IMG/VR virus record: IMGVR_UViG_3300046820_000562
Span: 1 to 21,831 of that record
DNA: 21,831 nt
From: a virus
Strand: one strand, 5' to 3'
The notes under the pieces are model-generated. The model worked only from the letters and a program-made list of their open reading frames with translations. It was not told where the DNA came from and did not search any database. Position numbers and translations under genes: made by a program. This document shows positions 11,472 to 21,703 of this stretch, piece by piece (the stretch's first letter is position 1; each line of letters starts with the position of its first letter).

Positions 11472-11939
11472 ATGGCATACATTTATCCAGCACCAGGCGT
11501 TAGTGGCGTTCAGTTGACACTAACACTTAAGGTTACTGGTGACACTACAGGATTGGTAGTTCCAGCCCTACAAGATGTTACCCTTAACAACGCTAACGAT
11601 GTGTTCACATGGACACAATTAGACTCAGGCAGTAAAAAGCAAATTGCTACTACTGCAACAAACAGCCTGTCAGGCAATATTGTTCTTGACCAAGATTCAT
11701 TCTTTGGTGTAACAACCTCAGGTGAAATTGCAAAAACCAAAGGTATTTTTGGTCTAAGCAAGGACAAACAAATCGTAAACTTTGAACTCTACATGGGTGA
11801 CGAGAGCGATGGTTCAGCAGGTAAGACCATCAGTGGCGCAGGCTATGTAACTGGCCTAGCACCAACTGTGTCAGCAGACAGCCCAGTGTGGGTTTCACCA
11901 TTCACATTGACTGTAACTGGTGACTACAGCGTAGCCTGA
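11472..11939 (+). CDS. Major tail tube protein
   Basis: The protein has 155 residues, all beta-rich, with AAGGAG 7 nt before the ATG. Strands LTLTLKVTGDTTGLV, FTWTQLDSGSKKQIAT, SLSGNIVLDQDSFFGV, KQIVNFELYMGDE and SPFTLTVTGDYSVA fit the beta-sandwich of siphovirus tube subunits, which stack as hexamers to form the tail tube. The protein is short compared with lambda gpV and lacks an extra C-terminal Ig domain. A strong terminator directly follows the gene, which supports its being the last, highly expressed gene of the capsid-tube transcript. Confidence 0.85.
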   Translation: MAYIYPAPGVSGVQLTLTLKVTGDTTGLVVPALQDVTLNNANDVFTWTQLDSGSKKQIATTATNSLSGNIVLDQDSFFGVTTSGEIAKTKGIFGLSKDKQIVNFELYMGDESDGSAGKTISGAGYVTGLAPTVSADSPVWVSPFTLTVTGDYSVA

Positions 11940-12023: not shown

Positions 12024-12197
12024 ATGGACATATTAGATAAAAAATCAGACCATGAGTTATTGCAGAGCCTACTTGCAGAGATGGCAAAAGCAAACAACGA
12101 AATCAAATGTGCCCAAAATGATTTAAACAAAGCGCAGAACAGAATGAAATTTTTGTTACTGCTAGCCAACATACTGATTGAAAGACAAGGAGATTAA
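12024..12197 (+). CDS. Small helical hypothetical protein
   Basis: The protein has 57 residues (MDILDKKSDHELLQSLLAEM at its start) and is almost entirely helical and charged, with a Leu-rich segment MKFLLLLANILIERQGD at the end that is too short and too charged to be a clear membrane helix. It is the first gene after the terminator and putative promoter, and its last codons (GGA GAT TAA) carry the ribosome site of the next gene 3 nt away. From memory, short proteins of this style recur in aquatic phage genomes near the tail chaperone; the function is unknown. A coiled-coil assembly helper is possible. Confidence 0.7.
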   Translation: MDILDKKSDHELLQSLLAEMAKANNEIKCAQNDLNKAQNRMKFLLLLANILIERQGD

Positions 12198-12200
12198 CAG

Positions 12201-12497
12201 ATGAAAATTACCCAAATTGCAAGCAAACCGCAACTAATCAAAGTCACACTAGATGACGCTGATACCGTAAAAGAACTAGGTGAACACCTAGAGTTCTGGA
12301 CCTGGGACCGTCAACCATTGGATAAGTTTATGAAACTTGCCAGTGTTAAACAAGACAATCCCGCAGAGATTATTGACATTGTAAAAGAATTAATCCTTGA
12401 TGAACAAGGCAAAGTTGTTATCAAAGACGGCGTTATGTTGCCAACACAAATTCTGATTCGCATTATTCAGAAACTTGTAGAAACATTGGGAAAGTAA
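12201..12497 (+). CDS. Tail assembly chaperone, short form (lambda gpG-like)
   Basis: The protein has 98 residues and starts at an ATG with GGAG 8 nt upstream. It is a small alpha/beta protein with a C-terminal helix (LPTQILIRIIQKLVETLGK). It lies between the tail tube and tape measure genes, where lambda-like phages carry the chaperone G. It ends at TAA 12495-12497, right after a GGGAAAG heptamer, so most ribosomes should terminate here and produce the short form, which in lambda binds the tape measure during tail assembly. Assignment rests on position, size and the frameshift arrangement. Confidence 0.85.
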   Translation: MKITQIASKPQLIKVTLDDADTVKELGEHLEFWTWDRQPLDKFMKLASVKQDNPAEIIDIVKELILDEQGKVVIKDGVMLPTQILIRIIQKLVETLGK

Positions 12498-12772
12498 TAG
12501 GCGAGGACACAGATTGGGACAGTCAGGATGCCATGATGACACTGACTGTCCATAACCTCGCTAAAGAATATGGCATGTTGCCCAGTCAAGCATTGGCTAA
12601 TGCCACAACGTTTGACTTGCACGTGTTGGATATGAGTTCTAGGTGGATTAAATATCAACAAGAACAACAAGAGCAAAAACATGGCAATAAAACTGCACCA
12701 GCAATACCAAAGTTGACTGTGGAGCAAATGCAGGCAATGATGGCCAGAGTTAGAAATCAGGAGCGAAAATGA
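12201..12772 (+). CDS. Tail assembly chaperone, -1 frameshifted long form (lambda gpGT-like)
   Basis: The product would be encoded by 12201-12494 joined to 12494-12772, about 190 residues. After a -1 slip on GGGAAAG, reading continues GTA ATA GGC GAG GAC without a stop into the downstream frame, giving VIGEDTDWDSQDAMM and then the T-like part: LAKEYGMLPSQALANATTF, a helical segment with QQEQQEQ, and VEQMQAMMARVRNQERK. An independent start at 12533 is unlikely because it has no good ribosome site and the frame is open back to the slip site. In lambda the GT fusion is a minor product that recruits tube subunits to the tape measure. Its stop overlaps the next start (ATGA). Confidence 0.88.
12488..12494 (+). 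other. Programmed -1 frameshift heptamer GGGAAAG
   Basis: In the zero frame the bases read TTG GGA AAG TAA, so the heptamer fits X XXY YYZ exactly (G GGA AAG). It is the same heptamer used by phage lambda between G and T. It lies immediately before the zero-frame stop, and the -1 frame is open for 279 nt downstream. Confidence 0.93.
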
Positions 12773-13059
12773 TACAAGTTGATGTAACTGTCAGTGACAA
12801 GTTAACTGGCGAATTAAAACGTGTGCAAAGGCAGTTACAACAAGTGCCTGCACAAAGTTTACAAGAATTTCGTGCATTGACACCAATTAAAAGTGGCAAT
12901 GCCAGACGTAGCACAACACTGAACCGTGAAACAATTAATTTAAATTATCCATATGCGGAAAGACTAGACACGGGTTGGAGTAAACAAGCACCCAAAGGCA
13001 TGACTTTGCCATTTGAACGCTGGTTTGCAAATAAAATTAAACAGATACTAGGACGTTAA
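12769..13059 (+). CDS. HK97 gp10-like tail completion / minor tail protein
   Basis: The protein has 96 residues. An N-terminal helix (DKLTGELKRVQRQLQQVP) is followed by ALTPIKSGNARRSTTL, a strand, and YPYAERLDTGWSKQAPKGM, ending in a helix with WFANKIKQIL. The order TP-x-x-SGNARRS, YA-x-x-LDTG and a late P-x-G-M is the pattern of the HK97 gp10 family of small neck or tail-completion proteins. It is unusual that the gene lies between the chaperone pair and the tape measure; it is normally before the tube gene. It is coupled to the GT frame by ATGA and has GGAG about 8 nt upstream. Confidence 0.62.
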   Translation: MIQVDVTVSDKLTGELKRVQRQLQQVPAQSLQEFRALTPIKSGNARRSTTLNRETINLNYPYAERLDTGWSKQAPKGMTLPFERWFANKIKQILGR

Positions 13060-13060
13060 C

Positions 13061-15514
13061 ATGGCTAATTTAGATTACAATGTCAATATTAACACAAATC
13101 AAGCGCAACAAAGCCTTGATAAACTTACACAAAACATTGCCAAAGTCAACACAAGTTTTGGTAATTTAAAACAGGCCATTGCTGGTATTGCATTTGGTGC
13201 TTTTATCAGTAGTGCAATTAGAACAGCAGATGCCATTGTTGACCTCAGCGAAGCAACTGGTCTAGCAGTAAGCAGTATTCAAGGATTTCGTGCTGCCGCA
13301 CAAGAGTTTGGTCTAAGTGCAGAAGGCGCAGAAAAAGGTATACTACGTTTAGTCAACAGCATTGGTGAGGCCGCAGATGGCAATGCAGGATTGCAGGAGG
13401 CATTTGGCAAAGTAGGTGTATCACTCAATGACCTTGCAAGACTTAGCGAACAACAGATATTTGAAAAAGTCCTAGCAGGACTCAGTAACTTTACCAACGC
13501 CAGTGAGCGCAGTGCAGTTGTCACACAATTACTAGGCAAAGAATTTAGAAATGTCAGCGGTGACACAGAAGGTCTACGTGCCCGTTATGAAGAATTACGT
13601 GACAGCGCACAAAGAAACGAAGCCGCTGTGCTTGCTGCCGCACAAGCATATGATAAGTTTAACACAGCAGTCAGCAGTTTTACAAATGCTATTTTAATTG
13701 CAATTAGTCCTGTTACTGATTTTATTTCAAGCCTTGACAGTCAACGCATACAAGAATTTGCCAATGAGATTGTTGCATTGACAACTGTTGCCGCTGGTAT
13801 TTTTATCTTTAGTAAAATTATAGCCCTGATGTCTGGATTTGTAACATTGATTGCCGCTGTAAAAGCAGGCACAATTGGTGCAACTTTGGCATTTGGTAAA
13901 TTTATTGTCATTGGTGCCGCAGTAGCCGCAGTGTTCTACGGAATACTCAGTGTTTTTAAATTAATAACTGGCATTGACTTGTTGACACCGATACTTAAAA
14001 CAGTTCAAGGTGCCATGGACAAAGTCAAAGAGTTCTTTGGCTTTAAACCAGAAGATAACAGTCCTGCATTTGACAAGAACAGCGAAGCCGCAAAGAAAAA
14101 TGCTGATGCAAATAGAAAAGCAGGTCAAGTTGTCCGTGAAGTCAAGGACCCATTTGAACAACTTAAAAAGAGCATTACTGGTGTTACAGAAGAATATGCA
14201 AGACTAAATCAGGCAAACATAAAACAAATTCAACTGCAAACAGATTTAATTGGCAAATCACGTGAAGACCAAGAAGTCTTAAGAGCACGTGGTGAGTTAA
14301 TCAGAAAAGAAGCAGAAGAAATTGCAAAACTTGAAGACCGCCGTAGTAAACTAACCAGTGAACAAGCACGTGCTGGTCTAGGCAAATTAATTGATGCTGA
14401 GATTGCAAAAATCCGTGAACAGACCAAGACTGACATGGATGCCACAGAGCAGGCTGTTAGAAACAGTCAAGCCCGTGTTCGTGCATTTGACCTAGAAAAA
14501 TTCAGTCGCCAAGCACAAATTGACATTGAAAAACAAATTCGTGATGTGCAATTTGAAATCTCAACAATTACCATGACTGACATGGAAAAGAAAGGTGCAC
14601 AAATTAAACGTGATGCCTTTGAACGTGCAGAAGCAGAAATTAAATCGCAAGAAGCCGCACGTGGCACATTGATGACTGAGATTGAAAAGCAAAAATACTA
14701 CGATGCTGCCAAAAAGAAAACTGATGAAGTTTTAAAATCACAAGAACGTCTTTACAACAAGAGCCGTGATTTTAGCACAGGTTGGAAACGTGCATTTAAT
14801 GACTACGTGCAGAACGCAACAAATGCGGCAAAAGTTGCAGAACAAATGTTTAGCAAGTTTACACAGGGCATTGAAGATACATTTGTTGATTTTGTCAAAA
14901 CAGGCAAGTTTGAATGGCGTGGCTTTGTCAATGATATGTTAGAAACTCTGTTACGCAGTCAAATCAAGCAAACAATGGCCAGCATATTCCAAGGCATGGG
15001 CGGCGCAACAGGCGGACTACTGGGTGATTTAGGCAATCTATTGGGTGGCGCATTTGGTGGTAATGCACCAGGAAGTAATCCACAAAATCCAATGTATGTC
15101 ATTGACCTCAGCGGAGGTGGTGGTGCGGCAGCAGGTGGTCAGCCATTCTTAACTGGCGGTAGTTCAGGCGGTGGATTCTTAAGTAGTGTTGGTAACATGG
15201 CTTCTAGTGCCTGGGAAACAATCAGTGGTATTGGTTCTAGCATTGGCAATGCCATAGGTGGTATCAGTGACTGGTTCGGTGGATTCTTTGCCAACGGTGG
15301 AACTATTCCAGCAAATAAATTTGGTATTGTTGGTGAACGTGGACCAGAATTTATTGGTGGTCCAGCAAATATTACACCAATGGGCATGGGCGGTGTTACA
15401 TACAATATTAACGCAGTAGATGCCATGAGTTTCAAAGCACTGGTAGCACAAGACCCAGGATTTATACATGCAGTGGCTATGCAAGGTGCTATGTCAGTGC
15501 CAGGGAGATATTAA
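13061..15514 (+). CDS. Tape measure protein
   Basis: The protein has 817 residues. The N-terminal 230 residues are helical (LDKLTQNIAKVNTSFGNLKQ, with a DLSEATGLAVSSIQGFR segment typical of tape measures). Residues about 236-303 form two or three hydrophobic helices (FVTLIAAVKAGTIGATLAF, VIGAAVAAVFYGILSVF), probably the membrane-passing part. Residues about 340-570 are charged coiled coil. Residues about 574-645 match the lambda gpH C-terminal pattern (MFSKFTQGIEDTFVDFVKTG, then LLRSQIKQTMASIFQ). A Gly-rich stretch and FANGGTIPANKFGIVGERGP near residue 745 close the protein, as in many tape measures. It sets tail length and probably helps DNA cross the host envelope. The length suggests a fairly short to medium tail, about 120 nm at 0.15 nm per residue. 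Confidence 0.95.
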   Translation: MANLDYNVNINTNQAQQSLDKLTQNIAKVNTSFGNLKQAIAGIAFGAFISSAIRTADAIVDLSEATGLAVSSIQGFRAAAQEFGLSAEGAEKGILRLVNSIGEAADGNAGLQEAFGKVGVSLNDLARLSEQQIFEKVLAGLSNFTNASERSAVVTQLLGKEFRNVSGDTEGLRARYEELRDSAQRNEAAVLAAAQAYDKFNTAVSSFTNAILIAISPVTDFISSLDSQRIQEFANEIVALTTVAAGIFIFSKIIALMSGFVTLIAAVKAGTIGATLAFGKFIVIGAAVAAVFYGILSVFKLITGIDLLTPILKTVQGAMDKVKEFFGFKPEDNSPAFDKNSEAAKKNADANRKAGQVVREVKDPFEQLKKSITGVTEEYARLNQANIKQIQLQTDLIGKSREDQEVLRARGELIRKEAEEIAKLEDRRSKLTSEQARAGLGKLIDAEIAKIREQTKTDMDATEQAVRNSQARVRAFDLEKFSRQAQIDIEKQIRDVQFEISTITMTDMEKKGAQIKRDAFERAEAEIKSQEAARGTLMTEIEKQKYYDAAKKKTDEVLKSQERLYNKSRDFSTGWKRAFNDYVQNATNAAKVAEQMFSKFTQGIEDTFVDFVKTGKFEWRGFVNDMLETLLRSQIKQTMASIFQGMGGATGGLLGDLGNLLGGAFGGNAPGSNPQNPMYVIDLSGGGGAAAGGQPFLTGGSSGGGFLSSVGNMASSAWETISGIGSSIGNAIGGISDWFGGFFANGGTIPANKFGIVGERGPEFIGGPANITPMGMGGVTYNINAVDAMSFKALVAQDPGFIHAVAMQGAMSVPGRY

Positions 15515-16131: not shown

Positions 16132-16739
16132 TGAGCATTGACCTTAGCAATTATACCTCAGTAGGCACTGCATTGATTGCCGCAATTACTGTGGAAAATT
16201 ATAAACAAAATGCCGGAGATCCTTACACCAGCACTGTGCTAAGATTCAGTGACTACAATTATCCATTGGTCATTGACGGCAACACTTATCTTGGACTGGG
16301 TAAATTTGTTGGCATTACACCAACTACCAGTGAATTAAAATCAAGCACAGGACAGATTACAGTTACAATCAGCGGTATTCCTAACACAGCAATCAGCGAA
16401 ATTATAAATTCAAGGATTAAAGGTTCGCCTATTGAAGTCTATCGTGTAATATTTGACAGTCAAACCAGACAAGTGTTAAGTATTGAAGGCAATCCAGCAG
16501 GTAGATTTTTTGGTTATGTTAGCAACTACACCCTAGATGAAGAATACGACATTCAAACACGCACAGCATCAAACACTATTGCAATGATTTGTGCCAGCAC
16601 ACAAGAATTTTTAGAAAACAAAGTCACTGGACGTAAAACAAATCCTACCAGTCAAAAAAGTTTTTATCCCGGTGATGCTAGTATGAACCGTGTGCCAAGT
16701 CTAGTAGGTGCAAGTTTTAATTTTGGAGTTCCTAAATGA
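16131..16739 (+). CDS. Minor tail protein, DUF2163/lambda gpL-like
   Basis: The protein has 202 residues. Visible features are an N-terminal beta domain (TVLRFSDYNYPLVIDGNTYL, then FVGITPTTSELKSSTGQITV), the segment ISGIPNTAISEIINSRIKGS, VEVYRV-like strands (IEVYRVIFDSQT), GRFFGYVSNYTLDEEYD, and a C-terminal part with ICASTQEFLENKVTGRKTN ending in PSLVGASFNFGVP. This order is typical of DUF2163-like and gpL-like proteins of the tail tip that connect the distal ring to the hub. It overlaps both neighbours by 1-4 nt, so the tail-tip proteins are probably made in fixed ratio. Confidence 0.7.
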   Translation: MSIDLSNYTSVGTALIAAITVENYKQNAGDPYTSTVLRFSDYNYPLVIDGNTYLGLGKFVGITPTTSELKSSTGQITVTISGIPNTAISEIINSRIKGSPIEVYRVIFDSQTRQVLSIEGNPAGRFFGYVSNYTLDEEYDIQTRTASNTIAMICASTQEFLENKVTGRKTNPTSQKSFYPGDASMNRVPSLVGASFNFGVPK

Positions 16740-17515
16740 GTTTTTTAGACAGCGTATTAGACTTTGGTAAAAGTGCTGTTGGATTTTTAACTGGCAACAG
16801 CATTGGTGGACAGATTGCCAGAACTGCACTCACAGGCTACGCACTAAACAAAGTTACAAACAGCGTAAACAGAGAAAATGCAACAACAGAAAGCAAACGT
16901 ATTGACCCTGGTGTGCGATTACAGGTCAACCCTAGTCCAGAACACAGAATACCTGTGGTCTACGGTCGTGCATTGGTTGGTGGCATTATCACAGATGCGT
17001 GGATGACCAACAATGACCAAACCATGTATTTTGTTTTGACAATTTGTGAACGAACAGGCAACACAGGACTGGGCAGTGGTGCGGCATCAACTTTTGCATT
17101 TAAAAATATCTACTGGGACGGTAACAGAGTAAGTTTTCAAAGTGATGCAGTTACAGTAAGTGGATGGAGTGACCGTGCAGGACAAACAGACACAAATGCC
17201 AATGGTAAAATTAAAATATGGTGCTATGGTGGTAATTCAACAACACCAGTTGCTCCAAGTCCTTATACACCAAGTTCAGCATTGCCCAACGCATACAATA
17301 TCATGCCAAACTGGACAACTTCACACACAATGAATGACCTTGTGTTTGCCATTGTCAGAGTTGACTATAATGCAGAAGCAAATGTAAAAAACCTAGGCAA
17401 CATTAAGTTTGACATAGAAAATTCTATGAATCAACCTGGTGACTGCTTATACGATTATATGACTAACACCAGATACGGTGCTGGTATTGACCCAGCGGAG
17501 ATTTACGCACAATGA
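16736..17515 (+). CDS. Tail hub protein, N-terminal part (gpJ-like)
   Basis: The protein has 259 residues. After a hydrophobic Gly/Ala-rich N-terminus (SAVGFLTGNSIGGQIARTAL) it has the hallmark IPVVYGRALVGGIITDAWM near residue 72, followed by a beta-rich part and the conserved-looking end NIKFDIENSMNQPGDCLYDY, then MTNTRYGAGIDPAEI. These match the first third of gpJ-type host-specificity or hub proteins, where the chain normally runs on for hundreds of residues. Here it stops after EIYAQ, and the next ORF starts at an overlapping ATGA with what looks like the continuation (SLQDLNSYGTTNVTYTD). It is thus probably one of three pieces of the hub. Confidence 0.78.
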   Translation: MSFLDSVLDFGKSAVGFLTGNSIGGQIARTALTGYALNKVTNSVNRENATTESKRIDPGVRLQVNPSPEHRIPVVYGRALVGGIITDAWMTNNDQTMYFVLTICERTGNTGLGSGAASTFAFKNIYWDGNRVSFQSDAVTVSGWSDRAGQTDTNANGKIKIWCYGGNSTTPVAPSPYTPSSALPNAYNIMPNWTTSHTMNDLVFAIVRVDYNAEANVKNLGNIKFDIENSMNQPGDCLYDYMTNTRYGAGIDPAEIYAQ

Positions 17516-19674
17516 ATAGTTTACAAGACCTTAACAGTTACGGCACTACTAATGTTACATACACAGATAGCCGGGACAGTGATGTAAAATTTGACCGTGC
17601 TATTCCAACTAATGCTACAGTGGAATTAGAACGCAAAGATTCACACACAGTGCCTGTGGGCATTAACATTGAAGAAGTTATAGGCACACCTGGTATTGTT
17701 TATACAGTAAATCTCAGCAGTAACACTGATGCTACACTAACATGGCCTAGTTTACCAGCAGGTGTTACAGCATCAACACCCAGCACAGGAATCTATCAGT
17801 TAACTGGCATTGATAGTGTCAGTGATTGGAATCAAGTAAAATCTCCAACAATCAGTCTAGCAGTTGGTTACACAGGTGAATTTACATATCAGGCAACAAT
17901 TACTTACAATTCAACACAATCACGTTACTGGGAAGTTGCTGTCACAGTGGCTGAAATTGTTTTCTTTGAAGATCCAGCACCTGAGTTTTTCTTTGCCAAT
18001 GGTGCAGTAAACTTGCTAGACCCTAGTGAGTTAATTACAGACAAAGCAGGCAATTTTACAGTAACATTAACACCCAGCAACACTGGGGCAATTACTTCAG
18101 TGGCCAGTGCTATTGCGGATCCAACACCAGTGGTCAGTTTTAACGGCACTACAAAAGTTACCACACTCACTGGCACAAACGCACAGGTAAAAACTTACCT
18201 ACAAAATCTAAACATTACCTATGCCAGTGGTGCTACCACAGCATTTAACATGGTCTATGATGGCGTCAGTGATAACGCAGACGCCAGTGCTGACACAGTA
18301 ACGCAGGTGCATACACCGACTCTGTATTTGACCAAAGTTGCAGGTGCCGCAGAATACACAACTGCTGTTGTCAGTGACATTGAAAACTATCCAACAATCA
18401 ACAATATTGTGGCGGATCCAAACGCATTGTTGACCAACACTTACACATTAACAGTTACACCAAATGATCCTAGTATCATTGACACTATCACTGCCACAGG
18501 CTGGCAAGAATATCCAGTGCTCACTGCTGGAGATGGTGGCATCACTGGTGAAATGGTTAAAAAATTAAGAGCAACAGCCAGTAGTGTTAGCAGACTTTAT
18601 ACCTATGACAGTGGCAGTAATGATGGCTATGACAGAATAGATGGTTGGAATCCAACAAGAGGAACCAGCAATAAAGTCTTAGATGATTTTGACATTAGCA
18701 GAGATACTTCAGTTAGAGTTGCAGTATCCAGTGGAGGCAGTGGTGCAATTTATTCTTTGGTCAGTGGAACAGAAACAAGTCTAACATTAGCAGGCGCAGG
18801 CGCTGTGAGTTTAAACTACAATGGAACAGTAATGGTTGTTTCAGGAACTAACTTGTTTGCACTATACACTCGCAGTGGTTCAACATGGACACAGCGTTGG
18901 ACTGCATCAACTACTGTTACTGCAGGCAACACAGTCAGAGTCAGTGGTAATGGTCAATATTTTGCCATAGGTGACCAACAGTTAAATTCAGAAACTGGTC
19001 GTGTTAGAGTTTACAATTGGGATGGCACAAACGCCACACTACAGGCCACATTTACTGGTGATAGCACTGATGATAATTTTGGTTCAGCATTAGAAATCAA
19101 TGATGCTGGTGATGAATTGTTTATTGGCGCACATGATGACAACACCACTGGTCGTGCATTTTATTACACAAGAAATTCTACCACTTGGACACTGACGCAA
19201 ACAATCAATCCATATTATACCAGCAACATAGACTTTGGTGGTGACAAAGACAGTCCTACATATGATTTTTACATTGACCAATCTTATGATGGTAACTATC
19301 TAGTAATACCAGCAAATTTAACTTTGTTCATTTACAAAAAAGTCAGCGGTGTATGGACACTATGGGACCACTATAATACAAGTGGACTTGGTGTGTTAAA
19401 TGACAATGGTCAAAACTTGTATTTTACAAATCTTGTTCGTGCTAACAATGCCTGGGTTGGAACATCAACACTGGCAACAACAGGTGTAAGTTTTAACACA
19501 TCAACCAAAGTGTTGACATTTACAGGCAGTAAATCAAGAATAAACACAGCACTAGCCACACTGCAATTGACTTCAACTAGTCAGCCAGACTGGCCATTTA
19601 CCTTGACATATGCAGTGACAACACCAGCCAGTGCCACAGAAAGTCGCACACAGACTGTGAACAATATAGGATAA
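17512..19674 (+). CDS. Hub-associated Ig-like repeat protein with inserted beta-propeller
   Basis: The protein has 720 residues. Residues about 1-30 (SLQDLNSYGTTNVTYTD) look like the continuation of the upstream gpJ-like chain. Then come Ig/cadherin-like repeats: about 45-145 (IVYTVNLSSNTDATLTWPSL), about 150-265 (NFTVTLTPSNTGAITSV, then TYLQNLNITYASG) and a third beginning TYTLTVTPNDPSIIDTI near 305. The third is interrupted at about 353-645 by an FG-GAP-like propeller with blades such as VRVSGNGQYFAIGDQQ, GRVRVYNWDGTNATLQATFT and DNFGSALEINDAGDELFIGA. The Ig-like repeat resumes as TGVSFNTSTKVLTFTGSKS and ends at NIG. No catalytic motif is seen. Role inferred: host-binding appendage of the tail tip. 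Confidence 0.75.
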   Translation: MNSLQDLNSYGTTNVTYTDSRDSDVKFDRAIPTNATVELERKDSHTVPVGINIEEVIGTPGIVYTVNLSSNTDATLTWPSLPAGVTASTPSTGIYQLTGIDSVSDWNQVKSPTISLAVGYTGEFTYQATITYNSTQSRYWEVAVTVAEIVFFEDPAPEFFFANGAVNLLDPSELITDKAGNFTVTLTPSNTGAITSVASAIADPTPVVSFNGTTKVTTLTGTNAQVKTYLQNLNITYASGATTAFNMVYDGVSDNADASADTVTQVHTPTLYLTKVAGAAEYTTAVVSDIENYPTINNIVADPNALLTNTYTLTVTPNDPSIIDTITATGWQEYPVLTAGDGGITGEMVKKLRATASSVSRLYTYDSGSNDGYDRIDGWNPTRGTSNKVLDDFDISRDTSVRVAVSSGGSGAIYSLVSGTETSLTLAGAGAVSLNYNGTVMVVSGTNLFALYTRSGSTWTQRWTASTTVTAGNTVRVSGNGQYFAIGDQQLNSETGRVRVYNWDGTNATLQATFTGDSTDDNFGSALEINDAGDELFIGAHDDNTTGRAFYYTRNSTTWTLTQTINPYYTSNIDFGGDKDSPTYDFYIDQSYDGNYLVIPANLTLFIYKKVSGVWTLWDHYNTSGLGVLNDNGQNLYFTNLVRANNAWVGTSTLATTGVSFNTSTKVLTFTGSKSRINTALATLQLTSTSQPDWPFTLTYAVTTPASATESRTQTVNNIG

Positions 19675-19678
19675 TTTT

Positions 19679-21703
19679 ATGCCAACACTAAGTCAACCAC
19701 AATTTTTAATTAATGGTGTCATTGATACAGAAAAACCAGTGATGCAAAATATGCAAACAATAGCCAGTGCCGCAGGAGCATGGGTTACCTATGACACAAA
19801 CGCTGGCAAATGGTCAGTGATTATTAACAGAGAAGTGCAGGCAGGTTACTTTAGTCAACGCACCGCAAAAACTATCACAGCCAACGGCAATGCCGCAGTA
19901 TCAACAGCACAGAAAAAATTTGGTGCTGGCAGTGTTGTGTTTGATGGCACAGGTGATGACCTAGTAGTAGCCAGCAATGCGGACTTTGCATTTGGCAACG
20001 GTGATTTTACTGTTGAGTGCTGGGTATATCGCAGTAATGCCAGCAGAGTAGAATGGATTGCACACTGGGGAACCATTGGTGCAAACTACGCAGGTGCCTT
20101 ATATGCCAGCGGCGCAAATTTAATCTACGCAACCAGTGGCACTACCAGAATCACAGGCAGTAATGTATTGCCCACAGCCAATACTTGGTATCATGTGGCA
20201 GTTAGCCGTAGCAGTGGCGTTACTAGATTATTTGTCAACGGCACACAGCGTGGCAGCAGTTACACTGATGCAAATACCTACGCACAAGGTCTAGTAAAAA
20301 TAGGCAGTTATTCAAATGCAAACTATTTCCTTGGCTACATTGACGAAATTCGTCTAAGTAATTCTGCCAGATACACTGGTGCATTTACATCAAGTTCAAC
20401 TGCATTTGAAAATGATGCAAACACAGTATTGTTAGTTCATGCCAACACTGACATCACAGATGACACATTGACCTATCAAACTGGCATTGCAAAAATTTAT
20501 GATGACAGTAACATTATAGGCAATATCACTATAAGTGGCACAGGCATCACAGAACTCTACAACAAAGTTCAACTGCAATTTCCTCACAAAGACATTGAAG
20601 ACCAAACTGACTATATCACTTGGTCAATACCCACAGAAGATAGATTTACCAATGAACAAGACCAAACACTGAACATTGAATTTGACTGCATCAATGACCC
20701 AGTGCAGGCAGAGTTGTTGGCATTGCGTGAATTAAAACAAAGCAGAGTTGATAAAATTATACAGTTTACCACGGACTACACCAGTCTTGGCATCAAAGCA
20801 GGTGACCTAATTGAAGTAACAAATACTGCACTTGGGTTTGTCAGCAAAGTGTTCCGCATTGTCAGTATACAGGAAGATGACATACAAGACGGCAACTTAA
20901 TTTTTAGCATTACTGCACTGGAATATGATGCCAATGTGTATTCAACTGCGGACCTTACACGTTTTACCAGAAGTATCAGCAATGGCATTGTCAGCAAAGG
21001 TGCAAACACAACAATTACAGCACTAGACAATCAGGCAAGTTTAAAAGTTAACACTAGCCCAGCGGCTGCAAGTCAAGGCTTGGGTATGTTGTTCAATGCC
21101 AATGCTGGCCTATGGGTGTTAAATCAAGCAGGTAAACTATTGACCATGCCTAGTTATGGTGGCTCAAACTTAGGTGCTGTAATTTCATGGACTTTTGACA
21201 CTGGTCAGGACTTGGATATTCGTTGCCGTGTGTATCAACCAAATCTAGGACAAAACAGCATTAACCAATATCTAGGCTACACTGGTGGTGCAGGAGACGT
21301 TACGCAATGGCCTCCAACAGGCACTGCTATCATTACCTGGGGTGGTGACAACACAGGCACTGGCGAAGAAACTGTTTTGGTAAACATTGGTGCTTTCAAA
21401 GCCGCTTATCCAACACAGCCTTATTTGATTGTAGAATGTCGTGGTAACTGGTTTGACACTCCTGGTGAAACTCCTGTGTTGCTGTCAGCAGCCATATATC
21501 AAGGCGGAACATTTAGTCCCAGTGGTTTTGGATTTACCAATACAGGATTTAGTGCCAAGCGTGTAGTTACAGGTTTGGAAATTTATGTCAATGTCAATGA
21601 CACTGATACTGCTGGTCAAAACGTCGGTGAATTGATGGGTTACTTTGTCTATGACATTGCCAACAACACAGCACAATTCACCAACGATGTAAGTTACCTA
21701 TAA
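19679..21703 (+). CDS. Tail hub protein, C-terminal part with inserted LamG domain (gpJ-like)
   Basis: The protein has 674 residues. The start SQPQFLINGVIDTEKPVMQN, then MQTIASAAGAWVTYDTNAGKW, is typical of the middle of gpJ-like hub chains, not of a protein N-terminus. Residues about 70-258 are a LamG-like domain (KFGAGSVVFDG, FTVECWVYRS, TWYHVAVSRSSGVTRLFVNG, YFLGYIDEIRLSNSARYTG). Hub sequence then resumes: NKVQLQFPHKDIEDQTDYIT, RVDKIIQFTTDYTSLGIKAG, then KVFRIVSIQEDD. The last 230 residues form beta-rich tip domains (ISWTFDTGQDLDIRCRVYQP). AGGA about 8 nt upstream can serve as ribosome site; the gene starts 4 nt after the previous stop. Confidence 0.8.
   Translation: MPTLSQPQFLINGVIDTEKPVMQNMQTIASAAGAWVTYDTNAGKWSVIINREVQAGYFSQRTAKTITANGNAAVSTAQKKFGAGSVVFDGTGDDLVVASNADFAFGNGDFTVECWVYRSNASRVEWIAHWGTIGANYAGALYASGANLIYATSGTTRITGSNVLPTANTWYHVAVSRSSGVTRLFVNGTQRGSSYTDANTYAQGLVKIGSYSNANYFLGYIDEIRLSNSARYTGAFTSSSTAFENDANTVLLVHANTDITDDTLTYQTGIAKIYDDSNIIGNITISGTGITELYNKVQLQFPHKDIEDQTDYITWSIPTEDRFTNEQDQTLNIEFDCINDPVQAELLALRELKQSRVDKIIQFTTDYTSLGIKAGDLIEVTNTALGFVSKVFRIVSIQEDDIQDGNLIFSITALEYDANVYSTADLTRFTRSISNGIVSKGANTTITALDNQASLKVNTSPAAASQGLGMLFNANAGLWVLNQAGKLLTMPSYGGSNLGAVISWTFDTGQDLDIRCRVYQPNLGQNSINQYLGYTGGAGDVTQWPPTGTAIITWGGDNTGTGEETVLVNIGAFKAAYPTQPYLIVECRGNWFDTPGETPVLLSAAIYQGGTFSPSGFGFTNTGFSAKRVVTGLEIYVNVNDTDTAGQNVGELMGYFVYDIANNTAQFTNDVSYL

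Follow-up and report, generated by a model that had tools for sequence, protein, structure and literature searches.

The question raised by this locus is whether two overlapping open reading frames (ORFs) in a virus genome, IMG/VR record IMGVR_UViG_3300046820_000562, belong to a single tail assembly chaperone gene that is read through a programmed -1 frameshift, as an earlier note made from the sequence alone had claimed, and whether anything besides the slippery heptamer would set the rate of the shift. The whole record, of 21,831 bases, is called here the window and contains genes for terminase, portal, capsid, and tape measure; the two ORFs, the heptamer, the stem arms, the ATG at 12533, and the tape-measure gene described below all lie on its + strand. 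The first ORF, at 12201-12497 including its TAA, codes for a putative G-like tail assembly chaperone of 98 amino acids that ends in LGK, and a T-like domain lies in the -1 frame at 12494-12772, its residues being encoded by 12494-12769 and its stop by 12770-12772. We propose that together they would form one gene of the lambda G/GT kind. The majority of ribosomes would terminate at the TAA and give the short protein G, while a minority would shift by one base into the -1 frame at the heptamer G GGA AAG (12488-12494) and give a GT fusion of 190 residues with the junction LGK-VIGEDTDWD. The rate of slipping is most likely raised or set by an RNA stem of 6-7 base pairs (bp) whose start lies 5-6 nucleotides (nt) downstream of the heptamer. 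Taken as a whole we consider this explanation likely, and of the -1 frameshift by itself, which is a prediction from sequence, we are close to certain. What we infer comprises the slipping, its rate, the action of the stem on the slip, and the binding partners of G and GT.

The slip site and its relatives

Across the heptamer the zero frame of ORF 12201-12497 reads TTG GGA AAG TAA, and the slip site abuts the stop codon, just as the earlier note had described it. The -1 frame has no stop between 12494 and the TGA at 12770-12772, a stretch of 279 nt with that TGA counted, which agrees with the length given in the note. GGGAAAG occurs once in the window when both strands are counted, and shuffling predicts 1.44 occurrences per window, with at least one in 70 of 100 shuffles. 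The word by itself is not above chance and proves nothing, and thus the case for a frameshift rests on the relatives.

Relatives were gathered by means of motifs in the middle and at the start of G, with the heptamer excluded from the patterns. Single-query searches found 13 loci with the window G and one locus with the window T, and in each of the 13 G loci, as in the window, GGGAAAG is present together with a T-like -1 frame. Three family scans followed the same patterns and yielded 148, 271, and 246 confirmed relatives, of which the best 80 from each scan enter the counts below. The first family set, of 81 rows including the window, has 80 GGGAAAG and one GGGAAAA. The 200 rows of the full set contain repeated contigs and come to 110 distinct G-T sequences and 95 distinct 86-nt stretches; omitted from it were L001, which is the window itself, and nine further loci (L002, L003, L005, L008, L009, L011, and L013-L015) whose contigs are covered by later loci. 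Among genome contigs there were 29 pattern matches, none of which was confirmed as a relative.

In the 110 distinct sequences the heptamer is GGGAAAG in 103, GGGAAAA in three (L046, L151, and L192), and GGGGAAG in four (L189, L190, L191, and L211). For GGGGAAG we infer a poorer re-pairing of the second tRNA, and these four may slip less or elsewhere. The loss of a slip-type heptamer at this place in relatives that keep both ORFs, which had been named in the earlier note, along with a missing fusion peptide, as a finding that would speak against a frameshift, was seen in none of the 110. The -1 T frame is kept in every one of them over 80-99 residues, except that in L169 it is cut by the contig end after 66. 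Of 40 representatives, chosen to share less than 90% identity in G, one has GGGAAAA and the other 39 have GGGAAAG. A leucine codon NNG followed by GGA and AAG is found in 39 of the 40, as against a joint frequency of 0.018 predicted from the codons used in the rest of these genes. The conservation of the heptamer, unlike its mere occurrence, exceeds chance.

An RNA stem past the heptamer

An observation that goes beyond the earlier note is a conserved RNA stem downstream of the slip site. Its 5' arm is GGCGAGG at 12500-12506 (core GCGAGG, 12501-12506), its 3' arm is CCTCGCT at 12556-12562 (core CCTCGC, 12556-12561), and it encloses a loop of 49 nt. When the window sequence after the heptamer was folded, the predicted structure had an inner hairpin enclosed by the pairing of GGCGAGG to CCUCGCU, with a free energy of -31.5 kcal/mol and a z score of -3.63, and none of 200 shuffles equalled it. 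The relatives were divided into T types (A, VINA, VTQD, and 'other') that were set from T residues after the sequences had been seen; type A is the type of the window and has 41 distinct rows and 32 representatives. On the 41 type-A rows RNAalifold gave a single helix between columns 13-19 and 69-75, column 1 being the first base of the heptamer. All six core pairs of GCGAGG/CCUCGC can form in 33 of these rows, five in six rows (L019, L030, L037, L056, L166, and L169), three in L146, and two in L165. Standard pairing is found in 94.7% of the core cells of the 41 rows and falls to 37-58% when one arm is slid by 1-3 bases. When partners were shuffled between rows, the percentage paired was matched in 3 of 500 shuffles and the doubly changed cells in 2 of 500. 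Among the 3486 helices of 6 bp in the region this one ranks first, with 93.8% paired over the 32 representatives (mean of all helices 36.9%, standard deviation 11.9).

The codons that make up the arms point in the same direction. Codon choice was compared in the 32 type-A representatives with the rest of the same genes as background. Gly4 is GGG in 6 of 6 (background 2.2%), Leu22 is CTC in 25 of 31 (4.6%), Glu4 is GAG in 22 of 22 (24%), Gly3 is GGC in 28 of 29 (33%), and Asn21 is AAC in 27 of 29 (36%). In the remainder of these genes, the codons that build the arms are seldom used. Folding was also compared in windows along G and T with shuffles that preserve the protein and the codon set, from which L169 was excluded; the binomial tails of this fold signal assume that the representatives are independent. 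At T codon 2 the mean z was -2.40 in the 32 type-A representatives, with other G and T windows between 0.36 and -1.42, and -1.96 in all 55 representatives, with other windows between 0.42 and -1.33. No Rfam family matched within the window at gathering scores. A second, weaker fold signal lies inside G at 12237-12308 (G codons 13-36), with a mean z of -1.33 over the 55 representatives and -2.73 in six of the VTQD type.

As for the other T types, of which VINA and VTQD are named after the first residues of T, RNAalifold found no consensus structure in the 13 rows of the VINA type or in the 34 rows of the VTQD type. A helix between columns 12-18 and 47-53 is 76.9% paired in the VINA type as against 26-55% in slid controls and does not rank first in its set, and one between columns 18-25 and 50-57, which is rich in A-U pairs, is 90.8% paired in the VTQD type as against 21-64% and is in part the top helix of its set. 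Both were picked after looking and are leads only. Outside type A, L114 of the VTQD type keeps five of the six type-A pairs and L172 keeps four. It is possible, although we lean slightly the other way, that the heptamer stayed nearly fixed while the stimulating stem was swapped near the same place between T types, being GCGAGG/CCUCGC in type A and a different stem in each of the VINA and VTQD types.

The start of T and the probable role of the stem

The ORF list, which was made mechanically and not by a gene caller, begins the second ORF at the ATG at 12533-12535. This ATG and the one at 12536 are T codons 14 and 15, and T could be taken as a separate gene that starts at either of them, the heptamer being incidental. 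Indeed, one of T codons 13, 14, and 15 is an ATG in 35 of the 40 representatives, and some phages are said, in PMC7302621, to express two chaperone ORFs apart with no evident frameshift. Such a start would not account for the codons ahead of it. The ratio of nonsynonymous to synonymous differences (pN/pS) was calculated with identical pairs, pairs more than 35% different, and L169 excluded and with multiple hits uncorrected. For T codons 5-13 (12506-12532) in the -1 frame the type-A value was 0.33 and that over all sequences 0.36, whereas the other two frames gave 1.14 and 1.06 in type A and 1.04-1.29 overall; for T codons 2-13 in the -1 frame it was 0.41. The T codons ahead of the 12533 ATG are under protein-level selection, and in the -1 frame only. 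Within the 41 nt after the heptamer, the -1 frame is free of stops in all of 94 distinct sequences, whereas the +1 frame is interrupted in 85 of them and the zero frame, where the stop of G itself is included, in all 94. In addition, five of the 110 sequences (L050, L077, L179, L181, and L187) have no ATG, GTG, or TTG among the first 25 T codons, and a slip-type heptamer is in place in all 110. Because the codons before the ATG are selected and these five sequences lack a usual start codon, 12533 is very likely a false start, as the earlier note had suspected, and a separate T start there is very unlikely. We therefore give the separate gene a very small chance. That the two frames are joined by transcriptional slippage or by an insertion or deletion artefact of assembly is a general possibility, and GGGAAAG has no run of more than three equal bases and the arrangement is common to 110 distinct sequences; we regard this as extremely improbable.

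If the frames are joined by a slip on the heptamer, the shift could still be a plain lambda-type frameshift with no stimulator, the GCGAGG/CCTCGC repeat being a DNA-level site or serving mRNA stability or some other role. Several results weigh on that side and against a stimulating stem. Compensatory change is scarce, with two pairs and three cells altered on both sides: L019 has A-U at 19/69 together with a C.C mismatch at 18/70, and L166 and L169 have U-A at 18/70 next to a G.G mismatch. In the partner shuffling, 17 of 500 shuffles reached the covariation score, 27 had as many doubly changed pairs, and 170 had as many further pair types. Support for the stem comes from codon choice to a greater extent than from compensatory change. 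The heptamer is still carried by the five-pair rows and also by L146 and L165, the two type-A rows without the stem. The folding signal at the site was not found in 4 of the 32 type-A representatives (L043, L056, L165, and L205), the seven representatives of the 'other' type have a mean z of -0.05 there and thus no signal on average, and in the six representatives of type C the site, with a z of -2.02, folds less well than a window inside G with -2.73. What the reading with no stimulator leaves aside is that, wherever all six pairs can form (33 rows), the 5' arm starts at a distance of 5-6 nt from the heptamer and that the other T types have candidate helices near the same place, even though these are weak. 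We think it unlikely that the repeat has nothing to do with the shift, and the stem is probably a stimulator of the slip.

Identity of the gene pair and known systems

The identity of G as a tail assembly chaperone, which the earlier note had assumed, is supported by its position before the tape-measure gene and by fold matches of mixed strength. The tape-measure gene, at 13061-15514, codes for the expected partner of G and matches Pfam PF09718 (Tape_meas_lam_C) at 8.6e-18 and the PHROG for tape measure at 1.4e-21. The order G, T, next ORF, tape measure is found in 26 of 26 chosen loci, of which L048 and L052 are apparently the same sequence. The predicted fold of G, with a predicted local distance difference test (pLDDT) score of 83, is similar to that of a BFVD record with the name tail assembly chaperone, with an E value of 5.4e-07, template modelling (TM) scores of 0.80/0.70, and 23% identity. 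The HK97 chaperone 2ob9 was the top row for the G model, tied with 3fgx, at Z 4.5 with a root-mean-square deviation of 4.5 over 89 aligned residues and 9% identity, a similarity that may reflect a common arrangement only. T is predicted to be helical (pLDDT 85), and its VIA-align rows, up to Z 4.1, include no tail chaperone. Foldseek against the PDB gave no match at E <= 0.001 for either G or T.

Some results weigh against this identity. The window G and T found nothing convincing in Pfam or PHROGs, their profile matches being weak, and the ORF at 11472-11939, placed as the tail-tube (major tail protein) gene, has no significant Pfam or PHROG match. With 40 members of each used as queries, phrog_31813 matched 13 G (best 6.5e-04) and phrog_6541 matched 7 T (best 0.005), both being of unknown function. 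Named families matched single members only, for example, a methionine sulfoxide reductase PHROG one T at 0.0017, and the best Pfam value was 0.0096, for ExbD with one G; these were taken as chance. When the window G and T and the G of L081 and L059 were searched by tblastn against phage records, the searches gave rows with E values of 0.1-4, a single row at 0.6, and no rows, and nothing was convincing. By analogy with lambda, the binding partners of G and GT would be the tape measure and the tail-tube protein.

Around the pair, an ORF of 57 residues at 12024-12197, between the presumed tail-tube gene and G, is present in 22 of the 26 loci and has no convincing profile match. The ORF at 12769-13059, between T and the tape-measure gene, is found in the 26 loci and has a weak PHROG match to tail completion/Neck1 (4e-06). 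After the distal tail genes are three consecutive ORFs, not all in one frame, at 16736-17515, 17512-19674, and 19679-21703, the last of which carries a laminin-G domain; all three may be fragments of a single tip protein. In Methylophilaceae phage P19250A (L092 2905-3716), which was reached via the tape measure of the window, an ORF of 102 residues before the tape-measure gene is in the -1 frame of the preceding ORF, and this ORF junction has no GGGAAAG.

The arrangement in the window is like that of lambda G/GT in its heptamer, the identity of which the earlier note had pointed out and which in lambda (L091) is likewise in the zero frame and close to the end of G, in its overlapping -1 T ORF, and in its adjacent tape-measure gene. 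It differs in that lambda T overlaps the tape-measure gene H with no ORF between them, whereas here the ORF at 12769-13059 intervenes, that the zero-frame stop in lambda is about 15 nt past the heptamer, whereas here it abuts the heptamer, and that the window G and T have no convincing tblastn match in phage records. Escherichia coli dnaX has a Shine-Dalgarno-like stimulator upstream and a heptamer other than GGGAAAG. Here no such core is present, AGGA, GGAG, and GAGG being absent from the 24 nt upstream of the heptamer in 108 of the 110 sequences including the window, and the stem closes a 49-nt loop. The likeness to dnaX is that the window too has a slippery heptamer with a stem a few nt downstream; the dnaX heptamer and its downstream hairpin stimulator are described in PMC3711429, which also reports 6% and 7% slipping in a reporter for two genes of a tail-chaperone cluster. 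PMC5009743 gives a ratio of 30:1 for the lambda products, describes the roles of both proteins, and reports G_GGA_AAG in a haloarchaeal virus. According to the same paper, certain tailed phages, for which lambda papers are cited, seem to shift with no stimulatory signals, whereas here a conserved stem follows the heptamer. TP901-1 gpG/gpT also slips on GGGAAAG (PMC4493119), a likeness by description and not by sequence, and a stem is unmentioned in the section of that paper that was at hand. No paper titled for a stem behind a tail-chaperone slip site was found among the titles that the literature searches listed, which is weak evidence of novelty and does not show absence from print. The frameshift would be ordinary for its kind, and it is the conserved stem, with its predicted effect, that sets this gene apart.

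These results correct the start that had been misplaced by the mechanical ORF listing, and they add to the G/GT set a phage family whose two proteins had no convincing match in the phage records searched. If the stem acts as proposed, an RNA structure could set the ratio of short to long chaperone along with the heptamer, and the 41 natural variants of one stem region could be used to measure the effect of the stem on slip rates in bacteria. If the stems were in fact swapped between T types, the tail-chaperone frameshift would be tuned by changeable RNA stems and not by the bare lambda heptamer.
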